The notes: generated from the letters alone by a model not told the origin. Counted from the stretch's first letter, positions 39,964-52,505 are shown. The stretch: 64,000 nucleotides of DNA from Dethiobacter alkaliphilus (GCA_016841605.1 JAENYV010000014.1:1-64000); one strand, 5' to 3'. Program-made: numbers and translations.

Positions 39964-40071
39964 TACAGCTAAAAACTAGTAATTAGCGGCGCTGTAAAGA
40001 CGGTTTAGCGGCCGCTCGGGCAAAGCGCCGGACCGACTTTCACCCGAGCACCTGGCGTATACGATGCTACA
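39964..40071 (+). repeat. Dispersed repeat (copy G)
   Basis: It begins TACAGCTAAAAACTAGTAAT, has GCCGCTCGGGCAAAGCGCCG and then TTTCACCCGAGCACC, and ends at GCGTATACGATGCTACAC. It is a shorter form of the 295-bp copy at 43472 without the inner ~180 bases. It fills the gap between two convergent genes and ends directly at the stop codon of the TolC-like gene. Confidence 0.7.
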
Positions 40072-41415
40072 CTACCTGATTGACGCGGTATCCGGGTCGA
40101 TGCCCTCCCTGGCGAGACGGTAGGCCAACAGGGCAAGATGGTAATCCTGTTGCGCAGTAAAAAGCTTCGATTCAGCTTCCCGGAAGAAGAGCTCCTGCTG
40201 CTCCAGGTCCAACAAGGCGATCATTCCCAGTTTGTACTGCATTCGGGCCTTCTCCAACTCATCCCCGGCATTTTGCAGGCTAAAAGCCGCGTTACTCAGC
40301 GTCTCGGCCGCCAGAACGATAGCTTCGACTCTGGCCTGATAATTGTCAGTCACGGATTTAAGGGTATTCTCAAGGTCCAGTTCAGCCTCCTCTACAGCCA
40401 GTTCCGCTGAGCGGTAATCATTGCGGTCGCTCTCGGAGGTATCCTCCAGATCTTCCTTTTTTTGCTCCAGGGCTTCTCGGGCACGCAGATATGTAAGGGT
40501 CGAGGTCAAATCGGGCATCTCTTCGTCAAGAACCGTCTTCTCCCCGGAAATATTAAGCGTTACCTCCGCCAAATCGAAGACAAAAGTATCAGGCAAACCC
40601 AGCAAGCTCCTGAATGTTCTCTGCAGGCTCTCGACCTTTTGCTGAAGCGTCAGGGAGGTCTCCCGCCCCTGTCGCAGATTTTCCTCAGCCTCGGACAGAT
40701 CTAAAGGAGTGCTCCGGCCCAATTCCGACAACTTCTCTTCCCTTTGCAGCATTTTCTCCAGGTTTTGCACGACCAGTTCCTGGTGAGCCAGCTCGTCACC
40801 TGCGGCCAGCAGGGAGAGATAGGCCTGCTCCACGTTATAGTCGATAATATGCGGCTGAGTTATCAGGGCGTCCTGAGCCGACTCCAAACTTGTTTCCGCT
40901 GAGCGGAGCTGTGATTTTACCTGATCTTCCCGGGATTTTTGCTCGTAATAGCGCGGTACAATATTCGCATAGGCCGGGCGTATCTCCTCAACCTGCCGTG
41001 TATACTCGGCTATATCCCGGTTGGCCTGGTCGATATTTGTTTGCAGGGCAGATACCGCGGGATCACCCGGCTCCAGTCCGGCTATTTCTTCTTCCCACTC
41101 CGCAACGCTCTCTTCCAGCAGTCTGATGGCATTCTCCCCTTCGTCAATAAGGGCTTCCAACCGGTCCATATCGCTTTTCATGTCGTCGATTGTATAATTG
41201 GCACTCAGACCATTCTGGCTTCTTACCTGCGCCAGGGATATCTCCGCCTGGGAATAAGAAATTTCCACCGTCTTCATCTGGCTGCCCTCTTCCCTGGCCA
41301 TAATTTTTGCTTTTTCCAGAGTGATAACCGGGGCGGCCTGAGCTGCGGCCAGTCCGCCGAGGAAAATGCCGGCTGCAACGATCAAGCTACAAATAAATTT
41401 TCCTTTTGTCAACAT
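40072..41415 (-). CDS. TolC-like outer-membrane-efflux-family protein
   Basis: The ~447-residue protein has a signal peptide (MLTKGKFICSLIVAAGIFLG, cleavage near AQAAP) and two related long-helix halves, as in TolC (LARQYKLGMIALLDLEQQEL-like QYKLGMIALLDLEQQ at the end; LSELGRSTPLDLSEAEENL in the first half). An unusually long coiled coil (~70-170) follows the first helix. TolC forms the outer duct of tripartite pumps in two-membrane bacteria; here it sits with MacA/MacB-type genes. ATG at 41415 has AAGG/GGGGG upstream and is preferred to the one at 41439. What it contacts in a spore-forming Bacillota is an open question. Confidence 0.78.
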   Translation of the reverse strand: MLTKGKFICSLIVAAGIFLGGLAAAQAAPVITLEKAKIMAREEGSQMKTVEISYSQAEISLAQVRSQNGLSANYTIDDMKSDMDRLEALIDEGENAIRLLEESVAEWEEEIAGLEPGDPAVSALQTNIDQANRDIAEYTRQVEEIRPAYANIVPRYYEQKSREDQVKSQLRSAETSLESAQDALITQPHIIDYNVEQAYLSLLAAGDELAHQELVVQNLEKMLQREEKLSELGRSTPLDLSEAEENLRQGRETSLTLQQKVESLQRTFRSLLGLPDTFVFDLAEVTLNISGEKTVLDEEMPDLTSTLTYLRAREALEQKKEDLEDTSESDRNDYRSAELAVEEAELDLENTLKSVTDNYQARVEAIVLAAETLSNAAFSLQNAGDELEKARMQYKLGMIALLDLEQQELFFREAESKLFTAQQDYHLALLAYRLAREGIDPDTASIR

Positions 41416-41431
41416 GCCAACCTTACCCCCT

Positions 41432-42703
41432 TTATTCATATCTTAATGCTTCAATAGGATCGAGCTTAGCCGCTTTATTGGCGGGATAATAGCCAAAAAA
41501 TATGCCGATTAACACGGTCACGGAAACGCTTATGACGATAACTGCCGCCGACGCTGTGGCGGGATATCCCAGAAGATTAGCTCCCAGGGCACCGATAAGC
41601 AGCCCCAGAATAATACCGATAATACCGCCAAAGACACAAATAATCACCGATTCCACAATAAACTGGGCTCTAATATAGGAACTTCTAGCTCCGAGTGCCT
41701 TTCTTGTTCCGATCTCACGTGTCCGCTCCGTCACAGAAACAAGCATGATGTTCATGACGCCGATACCTCCCACCAAAAGTGAAATTGCGGCGATAACTGC
41801 GACAGCGATGGAGACTGTATTTAACATGGAGGTCATGTTGTCGATGGCGCTTTCCATATTCATGACTCCGGCCTCCCAATCCGTATTTCTTTCATAAATC
41901 TTATCAAAATAGGTTTCTAACTCCTCACTAAAAAAAGCCACTTCAACTCCTGTTTTGGTAATTACCGTTAAACTCTGATAGTTTTCCGTCTCCGCGTCTT
42001 GCTTGGCCAAACTTATGGGAATATATAAGCTAGTGGTCGTATCTTTCTCAGAAGCGGAACTGGGTGCAAAGTCAGAGGCCTCATACTCGTAAACTCCTAC
42101 AATTGTATATGTCTCAATAGTTTCGTCGTAATATATTTTCACCTCCTGCCCCAGGGGATCTGTCCCTGCAGTAAACATATTGTCTACGAGCCTGTCGGAT
42201 ACAACAGCCACCTTTTTCAGCGCTTTGACATCTTTTTCGGCAATAAACCGTCCCGAAACAAGCTCCACATTGTTTGCCGTTGCATAGCCGTCGTTGGCTC
42301 CCGTCACATTCACGTTGGCATAAAGCCGTCCATCCTGCGCCTTGGCAGATCCGACGCTGTAAGAAAGACTTATTGTTTCCACCTTATCACTAAAATGCTC
42401 CATAAAAGTTTCCAGATCGTCGTCAGATAAAAGATCGCTTTCCTCAGGCTCTTCCTCAGAGCCGGACATGCCGGGTCCTCCTCTCCGTCCTTCTTCACCC
42501 CGCTCCCTGATGCTGACCATAATCTTATTTGCCCCCATACTTTCCATGGTTTCGGTAATGGAGGTAGTAAGGGAATTTCCGATGGAGACGATGGCGATAA
42601 CAGAGGCAATGCCGATAACAATACCGATCATTGTCAACATAGCCCGCATTTTGTTTGCCTGCAAAGCAGCCAGAGCAAGAACAATATTTTCCATTAAATG
42701 CAT
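41432..42703 (-). CDS. MacB-type ABC transporter permease
   Basis: The 423-residue protein has one N-terminal helix, an extracytoplasmic MacB_PCD domain (~50-290) and three C-terminal helices ending PANKAAKLDPIEALRYE. The GTRKALGARSS segment is typical of MacB/FtsX permeases. MacB-type pumps move substrate from the outer face by mechanotransmission rather than through a pore. A Gly/Arg/Glu-rich insert (RGEEGRRGGPGMSGSEEEPE) lies near residue 70. Its ATG directly follows the stop codon of the ATPase gene. Confidence 0.88.
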   Translation of the reverse strand: MHLMENIVLALAALQANKMRAMLTMIGIVIGIASVIAIVSIGNSLTTSITETMESMGANKIMVSIRERGEEGRRGGPGMSGSEEEPEESDLLSDDDLETFMEHFSDKVETISLSYSVGSAKAQDGRLYANVNVTGANDGYATANNVELVSGRFIAEKDVKALKKVAVVSDRLVDNMFTAGTDPLGQEVKIYYDETIETYTIVGVYEYEASDFAPSSASEKDTTTSLYIPISLAKQDAETENYQSLTVITKTGVEVAFFSEELETYFDKIYERNTDWEAGVMNMESAIDNMTSMLNTVSIAVAVIAAISLLVGGIGVMNIMLVSVTERTREIGTRKALGARSSYIRAQFIVESVIICVFGGIIGIILGLLIGALGANLLGYPATASAAVIVISVSVTVLIGIFFGYYPANKAAKLDPIEALRYE

Positions 42704-43429
42704 TTATTCCACCCCGCTTTTGGCTAAACTACTGTGAGGGTTTTTCTTTTCATCAACTATTCTACCGTCCTTGATCGTCAGTATCCTTTCCGTTTCTTCA
42801 GCCAATTCATAGTTATGAGTTATTAAAACAACTGTCGTTCCCTTTGTTTCATGAACTTTGTGAAAGAGATCCATCACAACCCGTCCTGTCACCGAATCCA
42901 GGGCACCGGTCGGTTCATCGGCCAAAACAATTGCCGGGTCATTAGAAAGGGCGCGTGATATGGCTACACGCTGTTTTTCTCCGCCGGAAAGCTCGTTCGG
43001 CAGATGATACATACGCTCCGACATGCCCACAAGTTCCAACAACTCCTTGGCCCTTTGCATTCTTTGATGCCTGTTTATTCCTGCATAAAGCATGGGCAGC
43101 TCCACATTCTTTAAAGCTGAATTTCGCGGGATCAGGTTAAATGTTTGGAAAACAAAACCTATTTTTTTGTTTCTAATATCGGAGAGATCATTATCGGACT
43201 TTTCTTGCATAGCTTCACCCTCCAGCAGATATTCACCGGAGGTAGGGCGGTCTAAAGCGCCGATAACATTCATCAGGGTGGTTTTTCCCGAACCGGAAGC
43301 GCCGACAATGGAAACAAATTCCCCTTTATGTATGGTCATCGTAATATTTTTTAAAATTTTTAGCTCATTTGGGCTACCGATAAATACTTTCTTGACAAGA
43401 TTACGAATATCGATCATTATTTCACTCAT
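42704..43429 (-). CDS. MacB-type ABC transporter ATPase
   Basis: The 241-residue ATPase has Walker [11 protein letters not shown]-loop [11 protein letters not shown], signature [15 protein letters not shown], Walker [15 protein letters not shown] and the H-loop LITHN. It pairs with the permease encoded next. GGAGG lies 5 bases upstream of the ATG. A 295-bp repeat element separates it from macA, the adaptor gene. Confidence 0.93.
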
Positions 43430-43471
43430 AGCTTCCTCCTACGGCAGTCTGCCTTATGTTTGCCTTATCAT

Positions 43472-43766
43472 TACAGCGAAAAATAGTGCCATAGGGACGT
43501 TTGGCGGTCGCTCGGGCAAAGCGCCGGATCGGTGCTCCGGTTTCCTGCCTGCAAGTCCTGCGGCTCTTCTTAGCCCTTCACCTTACCTACCCGACAAGCT
43601 GCCCTCCATGTCAGCGAGCCGGCTGCAGACATCCTGTTTGCAGGGTAAGCTTTCAGCCTGCGCTTCGCCCGGGACTTTGCACGGCCGGAAAAAGTCGCAC
43701 CTTGCCCGTCACTTCACCCGAGTGCCGGCATATAGGAAAGCTAAGAAGTAGTAATTTTTCGCTGTA
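43472..43766. mobile_element. MITE-like repeat (copy H) inside the efflux operon
   Basis: The 295-bp element has perfect 13-bp terminal inverted repeats, TACAGCGAAAAAT (43472-43484) and ATTTTTCGCTGTA (43754-43766). Inside each end is a related GC-rich block: GGTCGCTCGGGCAAAGCGCC on the left and CACTTCACCCGAGTGCCGGC on the right. It encodes no transposase. It fills most of the gap between macA and the ATPase gene, which otherwise would form one operon. No clear target-site duplication is visible. Confidence 0.75.
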
Positions 43767-43792
43767 CTGTTATGTAAATTAACGTCACTTCT

Positions 43793-45082
43793 TTACGGTC
43801 GCATCATTGGTCCGCGCATCATCCCGCCGCCGCCTGAGCCGCCGTTTGCCGGCCGTCCGGCAGCCATATTCTCCGGATTTACACTTGTCGCGTCATTGAC
43901 GACCTTGACACCATCAAAAAGACCTTCCCCCTGCACCTCTGTATAGAAATCCGTCTCTATACCCGTTTCCACCACAACTTCTTGGATCGTGGATTTTTCA
44001 TGCTCATCGGTGAGAATATAAACGATGCTCTGGCCATCGGCATTACTGCCGACAGCATTATAGGGTACCGCATAAACATCGGCCTTTTCTTCTAAAATAA
44101 TATTAAGACGCGTGTTCATACCGATTTTAAGTCCGCTGTCATGATCCAAAACAGCAATTTGTACTTCAAATTCTACCGTACTGGAGATGATCGTTTCTCC
44201 CGTTGCATCTTTTTCGGATGTCGGTGCAATCTCAATCACCTCGCCGCTGAGGAGAGCATCACCGGTAGCATCAGACTTAATGGTGACCGCTTGCCCTTCA
44301 TGGACCTTGTCGACATCATACTCTTTGACATATGTAGTAATAAGCAAATTTTCCGTATCCTCGACCACAAATAAGAGTCCGTTGCCCGAAGAACCTACCT
44401 TGGCAAAGACCGCTGTTACCGTACCGTCTACCGGGGTTTTGATCAACGAATCGGCAAGATCTTTCTCCAGTTTTTGCAGGGCTATTTGTTGCGTCCTATC
44501 TTCCTGTTTTATTTTTTCCTTTGTAACTTCCAGCGAGGAGATAGCTTTCTCATAGGCATCCGCAGCCAGTGTATAATCTGTCTCTGACTCACTCATCTCC
44601 TGATCGGAGATATATCCGGATTCAAATAAAATTTTGTTCTCTTCAAAGGTCTTCGTTTTGGTTTGCAGGTCGATCTCAGCCGTTTTAAGAGATGATTCCG
44701 CGTTAATCAGTTCGCTGTTCATTCCGTTATTGTTCTGCATCTCGGCCTTCTGCTGAGCAATATCCAGTTCCAGCGAGGCCGTATCCAGCTTGGCCAGAAG
44801 ATCTCCTACTGCGACCCGATCTCCTACAGACACATAAATTTCTTCTACAGGATAACTCAGAGTAGAATAGACATTTTGAGTATCTGCACTCTCAATATTG
44901 CCCGTTACGTCGATACTGCTGACCAGTTCGCTTTTAGAAAGGACCGTGTAAGAAATATTATTTGCATCACCACCGGCTCCTCCTTTTGCTGCAAGGGTTT
45001 TCAAAGTCAGAACAGCCGCAATAAGAAGGACTAAAGAAATAACAATAATAATTGTCTTTTTGCGTTTTATAAAATTGATCAT
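43793..45082 (-). CDS. MacA-like periplasmic-adaptor-type protein
   Basis: The 429-residue protein has an N-terminal membrane helix (TIIIVISLVLLIAAVLTLKT), lipoyl half-motifs (EIYVSVGDRVAVGDLLAKLD and TVTAVFAKVGSSGNG), a coiled-coil hairpin (~115-210) and beta-barrel/membrane-proximal domains, as in MacA/HlyD adaptors. The tail NGGSGGGGMMRGPMMRP is Met/Gly/Arg-rich. It should link the MacB pump to the TolC-like protein. ATG start with GGGAGAG upstream. Confidence 0.88.
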   Translation of the reverse strand: MINFIKRKKTIIIVISLVLLIAAVLTLKTLAAKGGAGGDANNISYTVLSKSELVSSIDVTGNIESADTQNVYSTLSYPVEEIYVSVGDRVAVGDLLAKLDTASLELDIAQQKAEMQNNNGMNSELINAESSLKTAEIDLQTKTKTFEENKILFESGYISDQEMSESETDYTLAADAYEKAISSLEVTKEKIKQEDRTQQIALQKLEKDLADSLIKTPVDGTVTAVFAKVGSSGNGLLFVVEDTENLLITTYVKEYDVDKVHEGQAVTIKSDATGDALLSGEVIEIAPTSEKDATGETIISSTVEFEVQIAVLDHDSGLKIGMNTRLNIILEEKADVYAVPYNAVGSNADGQSIVYILTDEHEKSTIQEVVVETGIETDFYTEVQGEGLFDGVKVVNDATSVNPENMAAGRPANGGSGGGGMMRGPMMRP

Positions 45083-45443
45083 AATTTATTCATCTCTCCC
45101 TATCACTACAGTACAAATTTACGATCTTAATTTGCATTTGCATTTGCTCTGCAGTGCTCTTTATTAAGACGCCTAATTTTATTCCTGTTCCCATAAACCT
45201 TTATCCCGGCCTGTAAATATTTGCACACACTAAACACACTCATGAAGCTTCTACTTCACCATAAGATGGATGAAAATCAAAGTAAGTTATTTTCCAGGAG
45301 CATATTTTCTTGGTACTTGCTTTTCACCCGCCTTTCCATGTAAGATGATAAAGGGGTTGCTCTCTGGTCCAATTATATACTCCTGTAATTATCCCCCAAT
45401 AATTATAACAAAGATAACATCTGTAAAACCAGAAAGTTTTTTC
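45083..45443. other. Intergenic region, cotH end to macA start
   Basis: This 361-base AT-rich gap must hold the macA promoter, but I cannot point to a clear -35/-10 pair. A short tandem of ATTTGC (three copies near 45128-45146) is the only repeat. No terminator hairpin is evident after cotH, so read-through into macA is possible. Confidence 0.4.
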
Positions 45444-47420
45444 CTATATTTTCATATACCTTCTGCGCTTGAAAAACAGAGCCATGATTATTCCTGCAGT
45501 TATGACAGCGCCTGATACCAGAAAATAAGTTAAAGATGTTTTGTCAATAGGGTGGTTTTGTGACGACCTCATTCCCATTCCCATCGGATGATTTCCCCCG
45601 GCTTCTTCCCCTTGCGGAATATTGCCGGGCATCATCCCGCCGCGTCCGCCTTCTCCGCCGGCCGGACCGTTCAGAGCGCCCGCGGCCTGCATTTCAAGCA
45701 TATTCTCAGGAATTCCCAACTCCACGGCTTTTTCCCGCAGTCCGTCGGTAAGACCGCCCGCGGCAAGGACTTCCTGTCTAAACTCTTCCAGCGCGGCCAT
45801 ATCTATTCCTTCCGGGAGCATCATACCTTGTGGCGGTTCGAAGGCACCTTCCGTCTCCTCCGGCTGCGCCACCCCTCCCGGCTGCCGGACGCCTTCGTCC
45901 CGGGCCGGCCTTTCGCCATTACCGTCAGGGCGCTGCCGGGCAGGAAACCTGTCTCCCTCTAAGTTTCGTTCTCCTCCCCGGCCCATGCCGCCTCCCATAC
46001 CGTTGCCGTCGTTTGTGGAGGCCAGCTCACCGCTGAGCTGCTTTTGAATTGATGCGGACATGGCCTCTGCAAGTTCGAGAATGCCGGAAACATTACCTCC
46101 AAAACCTCGAAATCCGCCCATCCGGTAGCCCTGGTGTTCGTTATCATTATTGGTATCTTGATTGGCGTCTTGCGGATAATCCGCGGTTTCTTCTTGATTT
46201 TCCTCCTGATTTTCTTCGCCCATAGCGCCGCCTTCTATGGTGCCGGAGATGCTTTTCTCAAACTGCTCGTAAGTGTAAAAGGCAGTGGGATCGGTCTTCA
46301 CATAGTCGGAGATCAGTGTTTTGCACCGGGCGGTTTCCGCTTCCAGGTATCCTCCGCTCAGATACTTCACGGCAATTTCCTCAAGATAACCGTGATAGGT
46401 CTCCAGATATTCTTCGTTGGACAGAAGTTCTGCTATAAGGGGTCTTGCGTCAAGTAATCCCTGGGTCGGCTCGTCGATATAGATACTTGCAGCATCACCG
46501 CCAAAACTGAAACCGCCGAAGGACATGTTCAAATCCCATGGGAGTATGGTGAAAACACCGTTTTGTTCATAGAGATAATAATTATGTCCCATATTGCCCA
46601 GATAGCTGTCAAAATTGGCCAGCGCCGTACTAACGGCAATATAGCGCAGGGCCCCGTCAACATCAAAATATTTTTCAATTTCACCATCATTATTCAGCGC
46701 ATCAAGCATGCTGGTCAACTTGGACCAATCGGCTTCTTTCAATGTACTCTTTACTTCAAGCCCCGTATAGTCGGACGGGCTTTCACCATTGTATTCAAGA
46801 GTATTACCCACGGATTTATACAGATCTCCTGTTATATCTCCAAAATTCCTTTCCAGATAAGGTTCCAGTATACTCTCAACCGCCAGGTATAAGCCGAAGT
46901 ACTCGCCGTTTACATGCACCGCGGCATAAGAGAAGGCCGGAACGGGTACCCCCATCTCCTCAAAGATCTGATAGGAGAGAAACTCACGCATATAGGAGGG
47001 ATCGGAAAAACAGTTGTTCAGATTGAGCTGGGTAAGCCCCGCCATGGTCTGACCGGAACTTTTCCCTTTACCGCCGAAGTTTAATTTAAAGCTGTAACGG
47101 CCGCTCTCACTACGATAAACGGACGAAAGACTGGAATTACCCTTGGCTCTTATCTCCACTACCTCAAAGGCATCGCCATTGACGGTTACTTTGGCCGGAC
47201 GGAATTCCTCTTCAATGGCGTTTTCCAAAATATCGTTCCAGTCGGCCTCACTTATTTCAATGTTGATATCCATAATTTTATCTCTCTGGAAGTATTTGTT
47301 CACATACTCGTCACCGTAAACTTTGATGTCGCCTGTGCCGTACACGGTGTATACGGCAATAAATAAGGTTGTAAATATCACCATCACCAGGGACAAAAAA
47401 ATAATTCCGGCATTCAACAT
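45444..47420 (-). CDS. CotH-family protein kinase-like membrane protein
   Basis: The ~658-residue protein has an N-terminal helix, a CotH domain (~30-370, with IRAKGNSSL, KLNFGGKGKS, LNLNNCFSDPSYMREFLSYQ and ILPWDLNMSFGGF, which holds catalytic Asp), a long Gly/Met/Arg/Glu-rich region (~400-620, GMGGGMGRGG, GGRGGMMPGN, HPMGMGMRSS) and a C-terminal helix with KRRRYMKI. CotH proteins are atypical kinases of spore coat proteins in Bacillus; membrane-bound versions occur next to VTC and DUF4956 genes. ATG at 47420 is chosen: AAAAGGAG is 9 bases upstream and directly follows the DUF4956 stop; the frame is open to an ATG at 47447. Confidence 0.88.
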   Translation of the reverse strand: MLNAGIIFLSLVMVIFTTLFIAVYTVYGTGDIKVYGDEYVNKYFQRDKIMDINIEISEADWNDILENAIEEEFRPAKVTVNGDAFEVVEIRAKGNSSLSSVYRSESGRYSFKLNFGGKGKSSGQTMAGLTQLNLNNCFSDPSYMREFLSYQIFEEMGVPVPAFSYAAVHVNGEYFGLYLAVESILEPYLERNFGDITGDLYKSVGNTLEYNGESPSDYTGLEVKSTLKEADWSKLTSMLDALNNDGEIEKYFDVDGALRYIAVSTALANFDSYLGNMGHNYYLYEQNGVFTILPWDLNMSFGGFSFGGDAASIYIDEPTQGLLDARPLIAELLSNEEYLETYHGYLEEIAVKYLSGGYLEAETARCKTLISDYVKTDPTAFYTYEQFEKSISGTIEGGAMGEENQEENQEETADYPQDANQDTNNDNEHQGYRMGGFRGFGGNVSGILELAEAMSASIQKQLSGELASTNDGNGMGGGMGRGGERNLEGDRFPARQRPDGNGERPARDEGVRQPGGVAQPEETEGAFEPPQGMMLPEGIDMAALEEFRQEVLAAGGLTDGLREKAVELGIPENMLEMQAAGALNGPAGGEGGRGGMMPGNIPQGEEAGGNHPMGMGMRSSQNHPIDKTSLTYFLVSGAVITAGIIMALFFKRRRYMKI

Positions 47421-47436
47421 AATCGACCTACTCCTT

Positions 47437-48117
47437 TTAGATCGCATATTCGCCGTTAAAGCTCACCAGCGCGGCATTACTAACGCCGGGAATTGCCGAC
47501 AGTTCGTTGACGAACTTTGTCTCCCCGCTCTTCATGCGAATTTCAAAAACAAGTTCTATGCCTTTTGCCGCTGTAACTGTTTTGGACTTAACGCGATATT
47601 TGGCAAAGTACTTTTTCATCAGTCCGGTTGCACCGCCTTCCGCGTTCTCATCCGTACAATTGACCATGACAATGTAGGGTGTTTCCACAACATTTTTACT
47701 GACAAAGACAATAAGAATAAAACCGATCAATACTGAACCCAGCACGGCAAGGGGGATAAGACCCGCTCCAAGGATAATTCCCGTACCAATGGCCCAGAAG
47801 AGAAAAACTAAATCCATGGGATCTTTTATGGCGGTGCGGAAGCGGACGATAGAAAGGGCACCCACCATCCCGAGGGAAAGAATGACGTTTGAAGTTACGG
47901 CGAGGATGACAAAGGTAGTCAGCATGGTCAGCGCCACCAGCGAGATATTGAAGGGTCGTGAATACATCACACCTCCAAAAGTTTTTTTATAAATGAGATA
48001 AATAAACATACCGATGAGAAAGGCAGCTGCCAGGGCTATGGCCGCATCGGTGAAAGAAAATCCGCTTGTTTTTTCGAGAAAGGTTGATTTAAAAATATCG
48101 TTAAAAGTAATTCCCAT
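47437..48117 (-). CDS. DUF4956 membrane protein
   Basis: The 226-residue protein has about four membrane helices in its first 140 residues and a ~80-residue soluble C-terminus. The SLGMVGALSIVRFRTAIKDP segment is the DUF4956 signature, and resembles the conserved pore-side segment of MgtC-like proteins. The C-terminal part has an ACT-like alpha/beta pattern. Function is unknown; the family is repeatedly found with CotH and VTC genes. It lies between those two here. Confidence 0.88.
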   Translation of the reverse strand: MGITFNDIFKSTFLEKTSGFSFTDAAIALAAAFLIGMFIYLIYKKTFGGVMYSRPFNISLVALTMLTTFVILAVTSNVILSLGMVGALSIVRFRTAIKDPMDLVFLFWAIGTGIILGAGLIPLAVLGSVLIGFILIVFVSKNVVETPYIVMVNCTDENAEGGATGLMKKYFAKYRVKSKTVTAAKGIELVFEIRMKSGETKFVNELSAIPGVSNAALVSFNGEYAI

Positions 48118-48210
48118 CTTGATTAACTCCTTTTAATAGTGTAAAGTTACTCCTTTTAATGTACTTTGGCTTTATTTCGGCACCTGACTTCCGACTACTG
48201 ACTTCTGCTC

Positions 48211-48897
48211 TTACATATACACGCGGCAGGCCGCGTATTTTGAAGCTGCTGCTGATGTGCATTTGTTCAGCTGGATAATATCCTGAATAAATTCCGGCAG
48301 AAACCCGTCAAATTTCACCTCCAGGATGCATCGGCCGTTCCCCGCTGCTGCCGCTCCGGGCAGGTTAACATCAAAGATATCTGTGGAAATAATCGACGAC
48401 CTGATATTGCTGTCGATGGTTACCCTGACATTACCCGCGGGGTAAAGGTACGCCTCCCGCAGATAATCCACCACAGTTTTAGGAAGAAGCCTTTCTGTCC
48501 GCAGCTTCACATAAAATTCCCTCAGCAGGGCCTGATCAGCTTCCTTCAGGAAGCTGATATCACCGCTTAAAATGTTTAAAACATTCTCTTTTGTTATCCT
48601 TGCACTAAGCTTAGCTCCATTGTTGTAATGTTTAATTTTTTTCTCCAGGCGGATGAAGTCATGGTTATGGTTATAAAAGCGGATGCGAAATTTCTCCTTG
48701 ATGGGCAAACCGTCCAGCTTCTCATAAAGAGCTTTATCTTCAGGCGTATCAAAATACAAGCTGCGAATATGATATCTGCCGTCCGGGCCGGCATGTTTGT
48801 CGCCAGGCAGTATACAGGAGAGCCTGCTTCTCATTACCAGCGCCTCTGCCGTGGTAACAATTTGCTTTAATTCATGGCGATATTTTAAGTTGTTCAT
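48211..48897 (-). CDS. VTC-domain polyphosphate polymerase
   Basis: The 228-residue protein is a single VTC domain: YRHELKQIV at the start, YHIRSLYFDTPEDKALYEKL, KEKFRIRFYNHN, FIRLEKKIKHYNNGAKLSARI and RCILEVKFDGFLPEF. The basic residues that line the tunnel and the metal-binding Glu are present. In yeast, VTC domains make polyphosphate from ATP; bacterial stand-alone versions are inferred to do the same. Its ATG overlaps the htrA stop by four bases, so the two are co-translated. Confidence 0.88.
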   Translation of the reverse strand: MNNLKYRHELKQIVTTAEALVMRSRLSCILPGDKHAGPDGRYHIRSLYFDTPEDKALYEKLDGLPIKEKFRIRFYNHNHDFIRLEKKIKHYNNGAKLSARITKENVLNILSGDISFLKEADQALLREFYVKLRTERLLPKTVVDYLREAYLYPAGNVRVTIDSNIRSSIISTDIFDVNLPGAAAAGNGRCILEVKFDGFLPEFIQDIIQLNKCTSAAASKYAACRVYM

Positions 48898-50096
48898 ATA
48901 CTATCACCTCTCTCTTTTTCCTTGAGCATAAGTGTTGCGGACAGAGTCTTGCCGTTTCGATAATACTTGACGGTAATTGTATCGCCGACCTTGTGCTGCT
49001 TTAAAATGCTGTTGACGGTGTTGATCGATATGACCGTTTCCCCGTCAAGCTCTAAAATAATATCGTTTTTCTGTATTCCGGCCGCTTCAGCAGCACTTTC
49101 GGCGGCAACGTCGGTAACCAGTAGCCCCTGGGGAACATTATAATAACGTGCAGTCATGGCATTTATTTCCGCACCGCTGATACCCGTAGCCGGCCGGCCC
49201 TTGACATAACCGTACTGGATAATGGACTTAATAATGGGCAGGGCATAATCAGTAGGGATGGCAAACCCAATTCCCTCAATTTCGGTTGAGGCAATTTTAA
49301 TGGTATTAATGCCTATTACCTGACCGTATTCATTGACAAGCGCTCCGCCGCTATTGCCGGGATTGATGGCGGCATCGGTTTGAATCAGGCTTTCAGCCAC
49401 GTTTTCTGCGGCCACTTTACGGTCTATCCCGCTAATCACTCCTACGGTGACCGTGCCGGCCAGATCCATGCCCAGAGGATTGCCGATGGCCATGGCAAAC
49501 TCTCCGGGGAGCAGATCGCTTGAGGAAGCAAACTGAGCAACCGGCAAATTATCAAGTTCAATCTTAATGACGGCGAGGTCGTTCTCTTCTTCACCGCCTA
49601 TGTACTTGGCAGTTGCTGACCTCCCGTCAGCCAGGTAAACCTCCATTTGACCATTCGTACTTTCAATAAAGCTCTCAACCACATGATAATTAGTTATGAT
49701 ATAACCATCCTCCGCGCAGATGATCCCCGATCCTTCACTGGATTGCTCAAACATCTGCGGACCAAACCTTCCCATCTGGGCCTTAATCTGCGCGCTAACT
49801 TTGATCCCTACGACCGATGAGACGGCTTTTTGGGCCATTTCAGACACACTCACACCGGCAGGAGTACTGGCCAGGCTCACCACATTATAGGTTCCGTTGT
49901 TTGCGCTGTCTTGCATCTGCAGAGTTTCCATGGCTTGCACCTGCAAGTTTTCCATGGTCCGCGTCAGAGCGTCAATTTTGGTATCGTAATCGTTCTTTAA
50001 GACTATTATGGCGCAGAAACTCACCAGTATAATCAGTCCTGACACTCCGTACGCAATAAGCTTGCTCTTTAATAAGTTTTCCGTTTTGCCGAACAT
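48894..50096 (-). CDS. htrA: HtrA/DegP-type serine protease
   Basis: The 400-residue protein has an N-terminal membrane helix (LIAYGVSGLIILVSFCAIIV), a trypsin-like domain with catalytic His (IITNYHVVES), Asp (ENDLAVIK) and Ser (INPGNSGGALVN), and a C-terminal PDZ domain (GLLVTDVAAESAAEAAGIQK). It degrades or refolds damaged exported proteins outside the membrane. RBS AAAGGGGG ahead of the ATG. Overlap with the VTC gene and place behind a two-component system suggest an envelope-stress link. Confidence 0.92.
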   Translation of the reverse strand: MFGKTENLLKSKLIAYGVSGLIILVSFCAIIVLKNDYDTKIDALTRTMENLQVQAMETLQMQDSANNGTYNVVSLASTPAGVSVSEMAQKAVSSVVGIKVSAQIKAQMGRFGPQMFEQSSEGSGIICAEDGYIITNYHVVESFIESTNGQMEVYLADGRSATAKYIGGEEENDLAVIKIELDNLPVAQFASSSDLLPGEFAMAIGNPLGMDLAGTVTVGVISGIDRKVAAENVAESLIQTDAAINPGNSGGALVNEYGQVIGINTIKIASTEIEGIGFAIPTDYALPIIKSIIQYGYVKGRPATGISGAEINAMTARYYNVPQGLLVTDVAAESAAEAAGIQKNDIILELDGETVISINTVNSILKQHKVGDTITVKYYRNGKTLSATLMLKEKERGDSI

Positions 50097-50276: not shown

Positions 50277-51665
50277 TTAAAAGGTAATTTTAAATGCTGC
50301 CCCCCCGGCGCTATTCCGGGCTTCTATTTTACCGTTATGCTGTTCAATAACCGACTTAACTATGGAAAGTCCGATGCCGTGTTTGCCTCCGTGGCCTTTG
50401 TAAAAGCGATCAAAGATATGGGGAAGATCTTCCTCTGCTATGCCTTCACCGTCATCAAGCACAAAAATGGTTATTACTCCGTTTTCTCTCCTGCAGGAAA
50501 GGGTGATCGTTCTTTTTGCATATCTGATTGCATTCGATATAAGGTTTGAAAAAGCACGGGAAAGACGCTTTTCATCACAGTTCATGTTTACAGGTTGATC
50601 GTCAAAATCAAAAACAAACTGCAGATCCCTCTTCGCTGCCAGGCTACTCTGGCGTTCGGCAGAGTTTGAAAGCAACTCGCGCAGGTCGCATTCTATAAAT
50701 TGGCTGTCCGGAGTTATGCTGTCGATCCGTGAGAGGTAAAGCAAATCTTCGACCAATTCGCTGAGCCGGTCACTTTCGCTGATAATGACACGGCTCGATT
50801 GGTTCTGATCCAGAATCCCGTGCTCAATCCCTTCGGCATTGCACCTGATGGATTGCAGAGGGGTTCTGAGCTCATGGGATACATTTTGGAAAAAAGTCTT
50901 TTGCTCCTTGTCATAAGCATCAAGCTGAGCAGCCGCTTTATTCATACTCTCAGCAAGCTCGGCAAGTTCAATGTCCCCGTATTTTAAAGCGCTTCTTGAA
51001 AAATCGCCTTCACCGATACGCACGGCAAACCGGGTCAGTTCCCGGACAGGTTCGGCAATTTTCCCTGATAAAAAAACGACGAGAACAACAGCCAGAATCC
51101 CTGCTATGCCCATAACTGCCAGAAGCACAACGTTTATACGCTCTGCAAAGGAGGTAATAGCCGTCATATCAATGAAGTAAATTAAAAACAAATTACCGGG
51201 CAGCAAATATTCCGGTATCTGCACGGAAACAAAAAAATACTCTCTTCCGGAAGCCTTGAGGCGCATAATTTCCGTGCTTTGCAGTTCCACCTGTTCGGTT
51301 TTTAGCTGTTTGACCAGTTCAAATATCTCGTCATAATGTTGAATAATGATCATGTTTAGATCAGGGAAGACAAGTTCGTAATTCTCTGAAACGATTATTG
51401 TTTCGGCTTTGCCCACCGGGCCCCTGGGCAGCCTTCTCATATCGGGGATAAACACACGCCTCTGGGTGGTTTGCGAACCTTTTTCATTGTAACGCACTAT
51501 TTGCATGACGTCTTTAAGCTGTTCATTAATACTGCCTTTAATGTACTCTCTTACAAGCAGGTTGAAAACCGTAAAGATTACCAGAAAAATAACAGCAATA
51601 AGCGACAGCACCATAACAAGTATTCTTGTGCGGATGCTGATCTTTCGTCTGCTAATCTTACTCAC
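50277..51665 (-). CDS. Membrane sensor histidine kinase
   Basis: The 462-residue kinase has two membrane helices (~12-38 and ~178-203) around a ~140-residue sensor, a HAMP domain, HisKA with SHELRTPLQSIR, and HATPase motifs (RAFSNLISNAIRYA, DDGEGIAEEDLPHIF, GGKHGIGLSIVKSV). The gene overlaps the response-regulator gene by eight bases. The stimulus is unknown; the downstream genes suggest an envelope signal. Confidence 0.93.
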   Translation of the reverse strand: MSKISRRKISIRTRILVMVLSLIAVIFLVIFTVFNLLVREYIKGSINEQLKDVMQIVRYNEKGSQTTQRRVFIPDMRRLPRGPVGKAETIIVSENYELVFPDLNMIIIQHYDEIFELVKQLKTEQVELQSTEIMRLKASGREYFFVSVQIPEYLLPGNLFLIYFIDMTAITSFAERINVVLLAVMGIAGILAVVLVVFLSGKIAEPVRELTRFAVRIGEGDFSRSALKYGDIELAELAESMNKAAAQLDAYDKEQKTFFQNVSHELRTPLQSIRCNAEGIEHGILDQNQSSRVIISESDRLSELVEDLLYLSRIDSITPDSQFIECDLRELLSNSAERQSSLAAKRDLQFVFDFDDQPVNMNCDEKRLSRAFSNLISNAIRYAKRTITLSCRRENGVITIFVLDDGEGIAEEDLPHIFDRFYKGHGGKHGIGLSIVKSVIEQHNGKIEARNSAGGAAFKITF

Positions 51666-52359
51666 CTGTTTTGCGCTCCTTTAGACGAAAGCCGAAACCC
51701 CAGACCGTATCAATAACCGTCCGGCTGCCCGAAAGTTTTTTGCGCAGCCTTCTGACAGTATCATCGGAGGCTCTTGTCTCCACTTCACTGTTGTATCCCC
51801 ACACCTTGTTTAGCAACTCCTCTCGCGATACGGCCCTATCTTTGTTTTCGATGAGATAGCACAAGAGATTGTATTCATTTGGCGTAAGCTCTAAAGGAGC
51901 ATTGTCCAGCAGTAATGTTTTTTTGTTCAGATTTATTTGAATATCAGCATAAATAAGCATGCGCTGAGCGGGATTTTCTTGTGCTGTCTTATCAAATTCT
52001 ATCCTGCGGAAAATTGCTTTGACCCGCATAACCAGAGAAATCGCGGAAAATGGTTTGGTAAAATAGTCATCGCTGCCGAGGTTTATTCCTGTGGCGTAAT
52101 CTATGTCGCTGTCGCGTGCCGTAAGCATAATAATAGGCACTGTGCTTAGCTTGCGCAGTTCCGAACACACTGTAAAACCGCTTGATCCGGGCATCATCAC
52201 ATCGAGGATGACTAAATCGCATGGTTTTTCTTGAAAAGCGGCCAGGAGCTTGTCACCATCTTCAAAAGCAGTGACAGAGTATCCTTCGCTTTCCAAAAAT
52301 GTTTTAACCACATCACGTATATTCTGCTCGTCATCGGCAATATATATAGACTCACGCAT
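51658..52359 (-). CDS. OmpR-family response regulator
   Basis: The 233-residue protein has a receiver domain (ADDEQNI, phospho-acceptor in VILDVMMPGSSGF, MLTARDS, FTKPFS) and a winged-helix output domain (LTPNEYNLLCYLIENKDRAV, DDTVRRLRKKL, VWGFGFRL). ATG at 52359 has AGGAGG 10 bases upstream; a longer frame to 52386 lacks this. It is the first gene of the minus-strand block that includes htrA, VTC, DUF4956, cotH and the Mac-type pump. Confidence 0.93.
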   Translation of the reverse strand: MRESIYIADDEQNIRDVVKTFLESEGYSVTAFEDGDKLLAAFQEKPCDLVILDVMMPGSSGFTVCSELRKLSTVPIIMLTARDSDIDYATGINLGSDDYFTKPFSAISLVMRVKAIFRRIEFDKTAQENPAQRMLIYADIQINLNKKTLLLDNAPLELTPNEYNLLCYLIENKDRAVSREELLNKVWGYNSEVETRASDDTVRRLRKKLSGSRTVIDTVWGFGFRLKERKTGE

Positions 52360-52505
52360 ACTTTGCCTACCTCCTGCGTTACTCACTTCATTCGATCATT
52401 TTAAGGGAAACGGCGGAAGAAATCTCCGCACCTTTGCCGAAAATTTGCCGCAAAACTGACGAAATCTCTATCTGACTGCCGGCAAACCAAATAAACGAAG
52501 AATAG

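Follow-up and report, generated by a model that had tools for sequence, protein, structure and literature searches.

In the window, the whole 64,000-nt stretch of Dethiobacter alkaliphilus DNA that we analysed, the C-terminal tail of a CotH-family protein could well be, though we stop short of calling it probable, a membrane-anchored docking or regulatory unit made of a tether, a mini-domain, a second tether and a transmembrane (TM) helix. The mini-domain occurs both fused to CotH and as a standalone protein (X) in MacA-MacB-(X)-response regulator-sensor kinase operons. Its presence in MacAB operons hints that the kinase docks with the pump, more than that the tails bind copper, and a partnership of the CotH tail unit with MacAB is plausible but unproven. 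All readings given here are based on sequence comparison and one predicted monomer. The features are collected in Table 1.

Table 1. Features of the CotH and MacAB operons, in coordinates of the window
Feature	Coordinates	Strand	Evidence
TolC/OEP-family protein, last MacAB operon gene	40072..41439	-	Pfam OEP 6.7e-12; order as in G008, G014
MacB-type permease	41432..42703	-	MacB_PCD + FtsX; PDB MacB 5lil, 5gko, 5xu1
Gly/Arg-rich loop of MacB permease, RERGEEGRRGGPGMSGSEEEPEESD	42434..42508	-	variable loop, also in orthologues without adjoining CotH
MacB-type ATPase	42704..43429	-	lies between MacA and permease genes
MacA-like adaptor, 429 aa	43793..45082	-	HlyD_D23/HlyD_3; 72/68/64% identical MacA in three same-family genomes
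MacA C-terminal tail, AAGRPANGGSGGGGMMRGPMMRP	43796..43864	-	12/12 G/M/R/P 12-mer; similar tails in orthologues
CotH-family protein, 667 aa	45444..47447	-	Pfam CotH 4.1e-68; PDB 5jd9 by sequence and fold
C-terminal TM helix, CotH aa 636-662, then basic end	45462..45542	-	predicted helix; kept in close homologues
Disordered Gly/Met linker 2, CotH aa 591-637	45537..45677	-	pLDDT <50; holds GGRGGMMPGN, HPMGMGMRSS
Conserved mini-domain, CotH aa 548-586	45690..45806	-	profile match E 8.5e-17; 17/40 CotH tails; AlphaFold
Disordered Gly/Met/Arg/Pro linker 1, CotH aa 481-546	45810..46007	-	pLDDT <50; composition; holds most of GMGGGMGRGG
DUF4956 membrane protein, CotH operon	47437..48117	-	adjoins CotH in 26/31 loci
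VTC (polyphosphate polymerase-like) domain protein	48211..48897	-	adjoins CotH in 26/31 loci
HtrA-type serine protease with PDZ domain	48894..50096	-	rarely detected close to other CotH genes
Sensor kinase and response regulator, head of CotH operon	50277..52386	-	RR and HK within 6 kb of CotH in 17/31 loci

Gly/Met/Arg/Pro-rich segments of CotH, MacA and MacB

An earlier note on this DNA had quoted Met/Gly/Arg-rich strings from three proteins, and all are present: GMGGGMGRGG, GGRGGMMPGN and HPMGMGMRSS in CotH, GGGGMMRGPMMRP at the end of MacA, and GGPGMSG in the MacB permease, where the insert lies outside the 43793-47420 range originally assigned to the observation. To gauge chance, we used a 446-kb sample of the organism's own genome (376 ORFs, chosen greedily). 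Among 12-residue segments of Gly, Met, Arg and Pro with at least two Met, the tail of MacA scored highest at 12/12, followed by that of CotH at 11/12. Next, at 9/12, comes an exported protein of locus L110 that matches the MacB permease profile, and the remaining ORFs scored at most 8. The tails of MacA and CotH, the strongest such stretches in the 376 ORFs sampled, exceed chance. The shared-tail observation is confirmed as real and unusual for this genome. The other RND_mfp-type adaptors read in this genome all lack such a tail. The MacB-like permease of L110 (17735-19147) carries the insert SRRQGRMMREGP.

The view that these families usually lack such tails held for most adaptors and failed for VTC-linked CotH and for MacB. 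Long Gly/Pro/Met-containing tails are the rule in CotH of VTC-DUF4956 operons (40 loci), and, judged from these homologues, the tail type is not specific to the window. We rejected the MacB insert as a shared tail: it is a normal variable loop of MacB, and the same loop contains Gly and Arg in crystallised MacBs (FNGNGFGDRRSR, FQGRGFGDN).

The CotH tail holds a conserved mini-domain

The window CotH has an N-terminal TM segment, a CotH kinase domain (aa 99-400) and a long C-terminal tail with a second TM segment. PF08757 scored 230.7 bits, over its gathering score of 23.8, and the kinase part resembles the B. cereus CotH fold (Foldseek 5jd9, E 1.3e-15, TMt 0.72). Its NFD and PWD motifs match up with 5jd9 in the alignment, and kinase activity is putative. 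Within the tail, a disordered linker is followed by a three-helix mini-domain of ~42 residues, a second disordered linker, a TM helix and a basic end. AlphaFold monomer prediction, run on ten sequences, placed the mini-domain helices at 550-563, 568-576 and 581-591 with pLDDT ~75-80.

We gathered close CotH homologues (54-72% identical) plus more distant ones. By alignment the mini-domain (IDMAALEEFRQEVLAAGGLTDGLREKAVELGIPENMLEMQ in the window, ~42 residues) was present in 17 of 40 CotH tails and undetectable in 23. Because this conserved block is found by alignment, the CotH tail is not merely low-complexity. RPMGM of linker 2 is also kept in several close homologues. No other ORF of the loci examined matched the mini-domain at a comparable score, and the mini-domain had no significant match in Pfam or PDB. 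At one locus (L142, 8811-10240; G156:C21) the CotH frame is interrupted and the mini-domain lies in a separate downstream ORF of 94 aa, a split or decaying copy.

A standalone mini-domain protein in MacAB operons

A scan of the phylum with the mini-domain profile covered 398 genomes and gave matches in 14. Apart from that of genome G356, the strong matches are at or in CotH genes; the two weakest are to a short, unrelated protein in G137 and to carbamoyl-phosphate synthase in G254. In G356 the mini-domain is part of a 137-aa protein with a TM segment at each end, encoded directly after the MacB permease and before the response-regulator (RR) and sensor-kinase (HK) genes, in an operon that reads MacA-ATPase-permease-X-RR-HK. 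A family-level scan found the same arrangement in G566, with a small two-TM protein X of 145 aa and different genes outside the operon. X and the window CotH tail are 50% identical over 48 residues (LPEGIDMAALEEF...MLEMQ versus LPENIDMFEIQQF...MLEMM). The two X genes, which are 64% identical, look like real genes because their dN/dS is 0.14 and each has a GGAGG-like site. The standalone mini-domain protein in the MacAB operons of these two sister species may represent another way of joining the CotH tail module and MacAB. Searches of Pfam, NCBIfam and PDB with the mini-domain and the 137/145-aa protein all stayed below cut-off, and a search for X in plasmids gave no match. A weak similarity of the mini-domain and the small protein to CPSase_L_D3/SAM-like domains was set aside as helix-pair noise.

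MacA ends in GGFMPPRPEGM and then Gly-rich sequence in both G356 and G566, and a Met/Gly/Pro/Arg tail is present on MacA in each of the three lineages that have the mini-domain next to MacAB. We compared 14 distinct MacB-linked adaptors, six of which have a tail scoring at least 10/12; a mini-domain lies within 4 kb of four of these six and of none of the other eight. A hand calculation gave a hypergeometric probability of 15/1001 = 0.015, a value that is not clean, since G356 and G566 are sisters, the CotH proteins of the window and G394 are related, and the cases were found via the mini-domain or CotH. The association amounts to three lineages with biased ascertainment. Three tailed MacA orthologues (in G008, G014 and G006) have no adjoining mini-domain. 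Only 1 of 61 adaptors not linked to MacB scored 8 or more; it seems to be the orthologue of G006, where the contig breaks off within MacB. None of 40 other adaptor-profile matches had such a tail.

A proposed docking model

In the docking reading, the flexible Gly/Met/Pro/Arg tether, the three-helix mini-domain, the second tether and the TM helix would anchor the unit in the membrane, and the mini-domain would bind a partner on the outer side of the membrane. Where a MacAB-type pump is encoded alongside, it would be the most likely partner, contacted via MacA and its disordered tail. Docking is proposed by analogy with YknW, an accessory protein that modulates the assembly of Bacillus YknXYZ (PMC4887032). 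In genomes without adjoining MacAB, the partner would be something else, or the pump would be encoded elsewhere. Met would act as a flexible, weakly hydrophobic linker residue and not as a metal ligand, as the Gly-Met tail of GroEL may illustrate. The partner may be MacA, the sensor kinase or another protein; where MacAB genes adjoin the unit, we favour MacAB.

In a further-reaching form of this model, which we consider rather unlikely, MacAB-type pumps would be coupled to an extracellular CotH kinase by a mini-domain that is anchored in the membrane and has not been described before. Some Bacillota would have it fused to the kinase and others as a separate pump subunit, and its docking partner would be the MacA tail. 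CotH phosphorylation would then be part of, or controlled by, the MacAB export machine. A conserved tail module that also exists as a standalone pump-operon gene allows a specific, inexpensive test of binding and supplies an initial candidate for the partner. This is relevant to CotH kinases outside spores and to the VTC-DUF4956-CotH set, so far without an assigned mechanism.

Gene order does not join CotH and MacAB

MacA and MacB lie together near CotH in 2 of 40 loci, the window and G394, a lower bound because some of the 40 loci are near contig ends. In G394, MacAB is convergent with CotH and its MacA is a distant paralogue, yet it ends PGPMMGPPAGAPPGR. In G297, CotH and MacAB share one contig at a distance of 2.5 Mb. 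The MacB permease loop of G297 (L120, 5773-7107) is very Met/Gly-rich (RTMPGGMMMMTGGGGGAPPGSGGKGMRGSG), although the tail of its MacA contains no Met.

The nearest MacA relatives, 72, 68 and 64% identical, come from the same bacterial family (G008, G014 and G006) and stand in MacA-MacB ATPase-MacB permease operons. TolC is also present in those of G008 and G014; the G006 contig stops inside MacB. A response-regulator gene lies upstream in all three, and sensor-kinase sequence also in G014 and G006. The C-termini of these MacA orthologues read RGLMPGMRPPR, RPLMPGMMTRRP and RGGMMIQRRQSR; the MacB loops of the three operons are rich in Gly and Pro. In G008 CotH is on another contig than MacAB, and no CotH match was found in G014 and G006 (96% complete). 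G432 and G485 have the MacAB operon with a MacA tail that is weak in the former and absent from the latter. Since the operons of G008, G014 and G006 carry the MacA tail and the MacB loop with no CotH alongside, neither feature depends on CotH.

The proposal that both gene groups form one system therefore finds no backing in gene order, because 38 of 40 CotH loci lack MacAB and tailed MacA operons occur without CotH. Comparison of homologues was divided: CotH tails occur without MacAB and MacA tails without CotH, but every MacA that adjoins a mini-domain is tailed. A common docking surface, also suggested earlier, gains from the mini-domain protein inside MacAB operons with a tailed MacA adjoining, and loses from the unconserved CotH-MacAB order. 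The 38 loci without a MacA and MacB pair, the 23 tails without a mini-domain and the three tailed MacA orthologues that no mini-domain adjoins count against docking.

It is possible, although we lean against it, that the tails are unrelated low-complexity linkers, flexible spacers of exported Bacillota proteins, and that the two gene groups came to lie side by side by chance. Gly/Pro-rich CotH tails occur family-wide with no MacAB nearby, the MacA tails and MacB loops of G008, G014 and G006 persist without an adjoining CotH, and the MacB loop does not track CotH. Against this reading stand the conserved folded mini-domain in the CotH tail, with its homologue encoded in MacAB operons, and the rarity of such tails in other adaptors (0/40 profile matches; 1/61 not MacB-linked).

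The CotH operon and its two-component genes

VTC, DUF4956 and CotH genes are contiguous in the window (45444-48897). Response-regulator and sensor-kinase genes lie within 6 kb of CotH in 17 of 31 loci and of none of 62 background ORFs. These 17 are 10 of the 13 CotH loci that have the mini-domain and 7 of the 18 that lack it. This distribution, and the small protein directly preceding RR-HK in G356 and G566, would fit a sensory accessory unit, exposed at the surface, that regulates the adjacent sensor kinase in CotH and MacAB operons alike. We regard this as unlikely: 3 of the 13 mini-domain loci have no close two-component genes, and CotH without the mini-domain has such neighbours too.

The same genome contains a second CotH-VTC-DUF4956 cluster without a Met/Gly tail (L061, 8665-11791; G000:C30, ~395-398 kb) and, within a frame of 1200 aa at C30:423435, a third CotH. 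Outside Pel loci, the three-gene CotH/polyP/DUF synteny is reportedly absent (PMC12345266). VTC and DUF4956 adjoin CotH in 26 of our 31 loci (for example L121, L132 and L133), a count that covers these genes only. An Rfam search of 36-54 kb gave no match, and promoter or terminator sites in the CotH-MacA spacer were no more numerous than in shuffles.

Metal-binding motifs are not conserved

The earlier note had suggested that the Met-rich stretches, a kind that often binds Cu(I)/Ag(I), could indicate a metal substrate. On this reading, which we judge very improbable, the tails would bind Cu(I)/Ag(I) and pass it on to an exporter of the MacAB type. The Met clusters, MMRGPMM and HPMGMGM among them, point that way, and the sensor kinase matches metal-sensor models, but below cut-offs and ranked under WalK/MtrB. 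The window CotH tail has no Cys. Met content of the 40 CotH tails ranges from 0.6 to 9.6% (median 4.0%), and MxxM, MxM, HxM and MxH are all absent from 14 of them. MacA orthologue tails have 1-4 Met, a number that is not conserved, and no metal-specific family scored above cut-off among the operon proteins. We rejected the metal reading, as the ligand motifs are not conserved across CotH tails. A literature search found no paper linking CotH kinase with methionine-rich segments. Met/Gly-rich composition is by itself a poor guide to metal binding, and the Gly-Met tail of GroEL is not known to have a metal role. That conserved C-terminal tail is a precedent for such composition (PMC11978752).

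Comparison with known systems

The kinase domain is like that of the spore-coat kinase CotH (PF08757; PDB 5jd9/5jda) by sequence and fold. Unlike spore-coat CotH, the window protein adds an N-terminal TM segment, a long linker, the mini-domain and a C-terminal TM segment, and its gene stands in a VTC-DUF4956 operon rather than a coat gene cluster. Gram-positive Pel loci have the same VTC, DUF4956 and CotH families side by side (PMC7112168, PMC12345266), and deletion of the S. intermedius CotH homologue lowers Pel and aggregation (PMC12345266). The window set differs in being headed by RR-HK-HtrA, with no pel genes among its annotated neighbours, and its CotH ends in the mini-domain and a TM segment where the Pel-locus CotH has an FN3 domain.

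With MacAB-TolC and Bacillus YknWXYZ (PMC4887032), the window shares MacA, a MacB split into ATPase and permease, and a TolC-type protein. That such a pump can have an accessory membrane protein is shown by YknW (PMC4887032), which belongs to the Yip1 family, whereas the small protein of G356 and G566 has two predicted TM segments and the CotH-tail mini-domain. GroEL is alike in its conserved Gly-Met-rich C-terminal tail (PMC11978752) and differs in being a chaperonin without a helical mini-domain or TM segment.

The MacAB-TolC operon of the window

MacA, MacB ATPase, MacB permease and OEP genes follow in order (40072-45082), an order repeated in G008 and G014. Curated equivalogs fell below their full scores (PRK11578, 61 of 342 bits; PRK10535, 213 of 966 bits), and by these profile scores the pump is MacAB-like and not an E. 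coli equivalog. The TolC/OEP-family protein closes the operon in a genome with named relatives among the Bacillota; a search by sequence gave it no PDB match. A 366-nt stretch that spans the spacer between MacA and MacB ATPase (43430-43795) is strongly foldable (-136 kcal/mol), whereas orthologous operons have only 11-52 nt at this place. Partial copies occur elsewhere in the genome: in L114 (101 nt at 82%), in L099 (60 nt at 87%) and in the window at 40003-40035 (33 nt at 91%). The stretch is probably a small mobile or repeat element inserted into the operon.
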